Source: a virus
IMG/VR virus record: IMGVR_UViG_3300031857_000911
Span: 1 to 30,822 of that record
Reading direction: 5' to 3' (one strand)
DNA length: 30,822 bases
Each line of letters opens with the position of its first letter. The stretch's first letter is position 1. The position numbers and the translations under genes are program-made. Shown here piece by piece: positions 10,008-10,079 of the stretch. Below the pieces are notes generated by a model. The model was not told the DNA's origin. It saw only the letters and a list, made by a program, of their open reading frames with translations, and made no database searches.

Positions 10008-10079
10008 ATGTGGACTAAACCAACAGCAACAGAAATGCGTTTTGGCTTTGAAGTAACGCTCTATGTAATGAACAGATAA
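10008..10079 (+). CDS. pqqA: PqqA, precursor peptide of the cofactor PQQ
   Basis: A 23-residue peptide that begins MWTKP and contains GFEVTLY, ending VMNR. PqqA peptides share a Trp-x-x-Pro start and a G-x-E-V-T-x-Y core; here E15 and Y19 are the residues that PqqE (a radical SAM enzyme, with PqqD as chaperone) cross-links to build pyrroloquinoline quinone. The short form resembles Pseudomonas and methylotroph PqqA. A strong AAGGGGA ribosome site (9996-10002) lies 5 bases upstream. It is the last gene of the rightward operon, 28 bases after it the terminator hairpin begins (10111). No pqqB-E genes are seen in the window, so host enzymes would have to mature it. PQQ serves methanol and glucose dehydrogenases in the periplasm. 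Confidence 0.88.
   Translation: [23 protein letters not shown]

Follow-up and report, generated by a model that had tools for sequence, protein, structure and literature searches.

The stretch of DNA analysed as a whole (hereafter the window) is a virus record of 30,822 bases carrying genes for a major head protein, a tape measure protein, an Erf-like annealing protein and a YqaJ-type recombinase. On the plus strand, the recombination module comprises the Erf-like annealing protein at 7758-8303 (PF04404, phrog_2324) and the YqaJ/lambda-exonuclease-type recombinase at 9063-9722 (PF09588, phrog_149), and a gene for a 75-residue SSB-like protein with the C-terminus DKTDLPF is the upstream neighbour of pqqA at 9706-9933 (+). 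The SSB-like protein has no Pfam match; the gene at the matching place in MW202481 is annotated as a putative SSB, and through this annotation and PF09588 the SSB-like and YqaJ neighbours claimed in an earlier note on this DNA were both recovered. Searching 50,697 phage records with the recombination module revealed a single long DNA match, at 78.9% and covering 83% of the query. It belongs to the Methylophilaceae phage P19250A, which was isolated on a Methylophilaceae bacterium. The YqaJ-type recombinase of that phage (P19250A_0031, locus L002, 3046-3702) is labelled diguanylate cyclase/phosphodiesterase, apparently a misannotation. Two large minus-strand genes of the window encode a 516-residue protein that resembles a methyltransferase-glycosyltransferase fusion and adjoins the tail genes (11466-13016) and a probable tail fibre of 980 residues that consists of collagen-like GFSGYSG repeats (13023-15965). 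No Rfam RNA element was found in the window.

The pqqA gene, with 23 codons and a stop, is located at 10008-10079 (+). Its product scored above the curated cut-offs of both Pfam PF08042 (38.3 bits, cut-off 21.1, E 1.3e-9) and the NCBIfam equivalog model TIGR02107 (37.4 bits, cut-off 20, E 1.5e-9), and it carries E15 and Y19 with the E-x3-Y spacing of the residues joined by PqqE. The 23-residue PqqA proposed for this position in the earlier note is thus borne out by the translation and by two profile libraries, a profile search being the test that the note itself had named, and the E15/Y19 pair is present as it had described. No PHROGs family matched the window PqqA, and a PDB search with it gave no match. 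The strong ribosome-binding site AAGGGGA that had also been pointed out was found at 9996-10002 (+), and an AAGGA/AGGGG element is the sole strongly conserved upstream block near the start codon of phage and host pqqA alike. A promoter scan gave a candidate -10 hexamer, CATAAT, at 9968-9973 (+) with a weak -35 at 9945-9950 (9/12 matches); the number of sites in the window scan did not exceed that in shuffled sequences, and the assignment of CATAAT to pqqA is suggestive only.

With the window YqaJ as query, 80 IMG/VR loci were collected, 70 of which had room downstream for pqqA. The gene was kept in 67 of these 70 relatives, 66 being found by script and one more (L311) differing by V16I only. 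Loss of E15, Y19 or the reading frame in relatives had been set out beforehand as evidence against PqqA; all three were retained in the 66 loci and in L311, with no frame-broken copy among the 66. The orientation was the same in 65 of the 66, and most copies lay 288-338 bp after YqaJ. Most members of the window's lineage have T in place of K4, and MEP301 has S.

Two relatives, L352 and L309, represent clean empty sites and have no pqqA in the rest of their records either, while the third locus without the gene, L370, is a distant relative with 54% YqaJ identity. In L352 only a few bases separate the ssb-like stop codon from the hairpin that follows pqqA in the window (10111-10136, +, fold z-score -3.3). 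Since L352 and L309 possess this hairpin without pqqA, it belongs to the ssb-like unit rather than to the cassette, and pqqA was placed before it. The terminator that the earlier note saw downstream of pqqA therefore exists as a hairpin, but it predates the gene and is not peculiar to it. Measured against the empty site of L352, the inserted cassette covers about 177 bp (9934-10110, +) and includes the rest of an operator, the promoter region, the ribosome-binding site and pqqA; by this comparison it is set between an older ssb-like gene and its terminator. Because two relatives live without pqqA, the gene is not essential.

When the whole set of phage records was searched in translation with the 23-residue peptide, pqqA was found in nine Methylophilales phage records (P19250A, Venkman, MEP301, MEP401, MEP402 and four of Melnitz) and in one spring-water phage genome; nine out of nine refers to the Methylophilales phage records returned by the search, and the taxonomy has further Methylophilales phage names. 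In none of the ten records is the gene annotated as PqqA, and the overlapping features, if any, lie on the opposite strand. The SAR11 phage HTVC008M, a related pelagiphage from the same collection, gave no pqqA match. Two records named 'Acinetobacter phage MD-2021a' also matched PqqA (CAKLQF020000010.1 and CAKLQH020000055.1); the one examined (CAKLQF020000010.1, L008) proved to be a bacterial pqqABCDE operon on a bacterial-looking contig and was rejected as a phage case. IMG/VR was searched for pqqA with DNA patterns. The strict IMG/VR pattern WTKP-x7-GFEVT was found in at least 120 contigs, all 120 listed being open from start to stop, and this is an undercount because most of the window's own lineage reads MWTTP. 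Six further IMG/VR contigs (L250-L255) carry a GMEVTSY-type PqqA, as in alphaproteobacterial methylotrophs.

The surroundings of pqqA differ from lineage to lineage. Outside the window's lineage its neighbours include major head proteins (PHROG 371, 267 and 138), a gp32-type SSB, a T4 regA-type translation repressor and, nearby, a baseplate hub lysozyme. In the groups of L105, L112 and L115 the gene immediately 5' of pqqA encodes the major head protein (phrog_371, 267 and 138), an arrangement that would bring strong expression late in infection. The orientation of the cassette also varies between loci: the gene is co-directional with its neighbours in the window and runs against them, convergent with SSB-like or other genes, in L003, L007 and some 30 others. 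Most genes within 1.5 kb point the opposite way to pqqA in 36 of 128 loci, where it therefore needs its own promoter. Such varied contexts point to several independent captures or transfers, although a gene of 23 codons is too short for a phylogeny to number them.

To describe selection on the peptide, an IMG/VR pattern was used in which residues 15 and 19 were free and the other core residues fixed. Although the pattern requires neither, E15 and Y19 were each present in 120 of the 120 peptides listed. Among 104 distinct DNA versions pS was 0.61 against a pN of 0.075, and on the nine codons left free by the pattern the values were 0.69 and 0.17. Synonymous change is near saturation and the peptide is hardly altered, a clear signature of purifying selection on phage PqqA as read from these codon comparisons.

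The phage peptide is of a host type. Across 84,980 bacterial and archaeal genomes, matches to the EMRFGFEVT pattern came almost only from Methylophilaceae and related betaproteobacterial bins, often with several copies per genome, and the commonest phage peptide in the samples is also the commonest host peptide. This peptide type and the nearest named phage, P19250A, fit the methylotrophic host that the earlier note had supposed. All 120 Methylophilaceae genomes listed have pqqA, in 1-12 copies, in keeping with the published description of 3-12 copies beside a usually single pqqBCDE, with stand-alone copies the rule (PMC4109929). Neither the enzymes that act on the peptide nor methanol dehydrogenase were encountered in the phage sequences covered: no PqqB-E homologues were found in 120 phage loci, no PqqE above the cut-off in 35 records including that of the window, and no methanol dehydrogenase in 30 phage records. 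One weak radical-SAM-like match, in G131, fell below the cut-off. A linked pqqBCDE is absent from these loci, and such linkage does not define PqqA in Methylophilaceae. Homology of the whole cassette between phage and host, beyond pqqA itself, was considered and rejected; the overlaps of about 200 bp were summed matches with no long common flank.

Motif discovery upstream of pqqA found cATGATTTTCctTA in phages and, independently, ATGAAAATCATGAG in hosts, each scoring much higher than shuffled sequences did. The two motifs are one inverted repeat, CTMATGA-www-TCATKAG, which written out is CTCATGAAAATCATGAG. A score of at least 14 was reached in 81 of 125 host upstream regions (1.6 expected) and in 42 of 125 phage upstream regions (2.0 expected). 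Strong sites (score at least 15) preceded 19 of 125 phage pqqA genes, 0.08 being expected, and only 5 occurred in the other 1.0 Mb of those phage loci. The exact core was found at 160 sites in 60 host genomes against 5 for the reversed control. Where the list of pqqA copies was complete (13 genomes), 29 of 34 host sites fell 107-133 bp before a pqqA start, and one of the other five precedes pqqB. Methylophilaceae L256-L268 are among the genomes in which the palindrome precedes most pqqA copies. The palindrome resembles a Fur box, a candidate that was discarded, as the exact host sites stand almost solely at pqq genes. From this placement the palindrome looks like the mark of a dedicated host PQQ regulon, which is probable.

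The copy in the window is degenerate. Upstream of the window pqqA the exact palindrome TMATGAWWWTCATKA does not occur, and the operator-like inverted repeat TTAATGATTTTACTGAT is found at 9930-9946 (+), overlapping the ssb-like stop codon. Taken alone this site is not significant, as 24 window sites score at least 13. The sequence TTAATGATTTTACTGAT is identical in P19250A, beside a spacer that contains an 11-bp indel and many changes; the exact 17-mer scores highest in 46 of 66 relatives, and it is missing from the empty sites, where pqqA is missing. The first four bases of the site are also the last four of the ssb-like gene, and part of its conservation may therefore be coding. The host-type operator upstream, the empty sites and the commonness of phage pqqA had not been noticed in the earlier note.

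In our judgement the host-derived pqqA cassette of this Methylophilaceae phage is probably an auxiliary metabolic gene whose product is a sacrificial substrate for PQQ. Two features expected of such genes are present, a host-type peptide in a genuine phage genome and retention by selection across relatives. One PqqA is consumed for each PQQ formed, while the enzymes of the pathway turn over. PqqA being the sole pathway part consumed one-for-one, 23 codons would be the cheapest way to raise PQQ. During infection, phage pqqA would be transcribed from its own host-type promoter, and the peptide would be made in quantity and passed to PqqD/PqqE, PqqB and PqqC of the host. More PQQ would then lead to more methanol dehydrogenase activity and hence to more energy and carbon. 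A palindrome common to host pqqA and pqqB promoters would put many phage copies under host PQQ control. Most likely, then, the phage adds only the consumed precursor, which PqqB-E of the host convert to PQQ. Raising PQQ for methanol dehydrogenase in this way, as the earlier note had proposed, is the best-supported reading, because searches of the phage loci and records gave neither PqqB-E nor methanol dehydrogenase and because E15 and Y19 did not vary where the pattern left them free. PqqE together with PqqD joins the Glu and Tyr of PqqA (cited in PMC9851590). The hosts themselves multiply pqqA, which supports the supply reading. As counterpoints, hosts with several copies may already have enough PqqA, one pqqA copy can reportedly dominate PQQ supply (Ge et al., cited in PMC9851590), the window operator is imperfect, K4 is changed to T in most of the lineage and two relatives do without the gene.

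Several other explanations were weighed against PQQ supply. A chance open reading frame, or host DNA mixed into a viral contig, might be suspected from the mere 23 codons and from the identical peptide in hosts, and is already refuted: E values of about 1e-9 were obtained against two libraries, pqqA is present in cultured phage genomes, and phage and host contigs share DNA over about the cassette only. The one exception to the last point, contig L189, is phage-like; binned as a Flavobacteriaceae MAG, it has up to 1.5 kb in common with MEP301-type phages of Methylophilales and probably comes from a phage itself. Hosts with up to 12 pqqA copies, a small gene inserted at a gene end and the occurrence of empty sites would also suit a neutral hitchhiker picked up from the host; low pN/pS, retention in 67 of 70 relatives and placement of pqqA in several unrelated phage lineages make this very unlikely.

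The phage peptide could also act as a decoy that competes for PqqD/PqqE or yields another product, thereby lowering or diverting host PQQ. Host enzymes would meet surplus substrate, pqqB-E were not found alongside phage pqqA and most of the lineage has T for K4, all of which would agree with interference. In a decoy, however, the cross-linked residues should tend to be lost or changed, whereas E15 and Y19 both persist and the peptide seen most often in phages matches a host one exactly, so that we regard this explanation as unlikely. The phage operator copies might serve as a regulatory device that titrates the host regulator, with the peptide secondary. In favour of this, host copies of the palindrome lie almost exclusively at pqq genes, phage copies are enriched at pqqA, and operator and pqqA are gained or lost together; yet the peptide is under clear purifying selection, the strong palindrome accompanies a minority of phage cassettes (42/125, score 14) and the operator was never met in a phage that lacks pqqA, which leaves titration as the main function quite improbable. 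A broader scheme, in which Methylophilaceae phages have repeatedly captured a mobile operator and pqqA cassette, drawing a dedicated host PQQ regulator into the infection programme, and their replicating genomes both titrate that regulator and flood PqqD/PqqE with substrate, setting the PQQ level and the rate of methanol oxidation, is put forward tentatively, as a conceivable but rather doubtful extension of PQQ supply.

Whether phage pqqA had been described elsewhere was left open in the earlier note; one report exists, on the T4-like Lake Baikal phage VP_266 with PqqA and methanol dehydrogenase (Coutinho et al. 2020, PMC7678222), and phage pqqA as a kind of gene is thus already known. Both cases concern PqqA in a predicted Methylophilaceae phage with a proposed support of methanol oxidation. 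VP_266, however, is T4-like and has methanol dehydrogenase, while the window phage is of the P19250A type and has none in its 30,822-base record; the report describes one case, without an analysis of operator, cassette or prevalence. The papers on Venkman, Melnitz and MEP401/402 do not mention pqqA, the Melnitz paper naming PQQ solely as a medium additive. No description of the palindrome was found in the literature searched, subscription papers lying outside its scope. That literature also appears to hold no earlier account of the near-universal presence of pqqA among methylophage isolates, of its clean cassette or of the operator shared with hosts.

The window copy resembles the stand-alone pqqA of Methylophilaceae chromosomes (PMC4109929) in peptide type, in forming a stand-alone unit and in the upstream palindrome, and differs in being viral, in its degenerate operator and in its spacer and -10 region. 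PqqA is a RiPP precursor, a ribosomal peptide that needs the radical-SAM enzyme PqqE and the chaperone PqqD, but here the phage has the precursor alone and the maturation genes are those of the host. Cyanophage genes such as pstS are placed under the host phosphate regulator. The likeness is that a host operator apparently controls an auxiliary metabolic gene; the pathway is a different one, and the window gene encodes a consumed precursor peptide rather than an enzyme or transporter.

A 72-base pqqA present in all the Methylophilales phage records returned, and occurring in fresh and marine waters and in several virus lineages, would be a near-hallmark of methylophages, which would follow a simple rule: carry the consumed precursor and borrow the enzymes. 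Phage pqqA may serve as a sequence marker linking uncultured phages to methylotroph hosts, and the palindrome offers a specific DNA site for seeking the regulator of PQQ synthesis. With existing phage-host pairs (P19250A, Venkman, Melnitz and MEP401), the role of pqqA in infection of methylotrophs is testable now.
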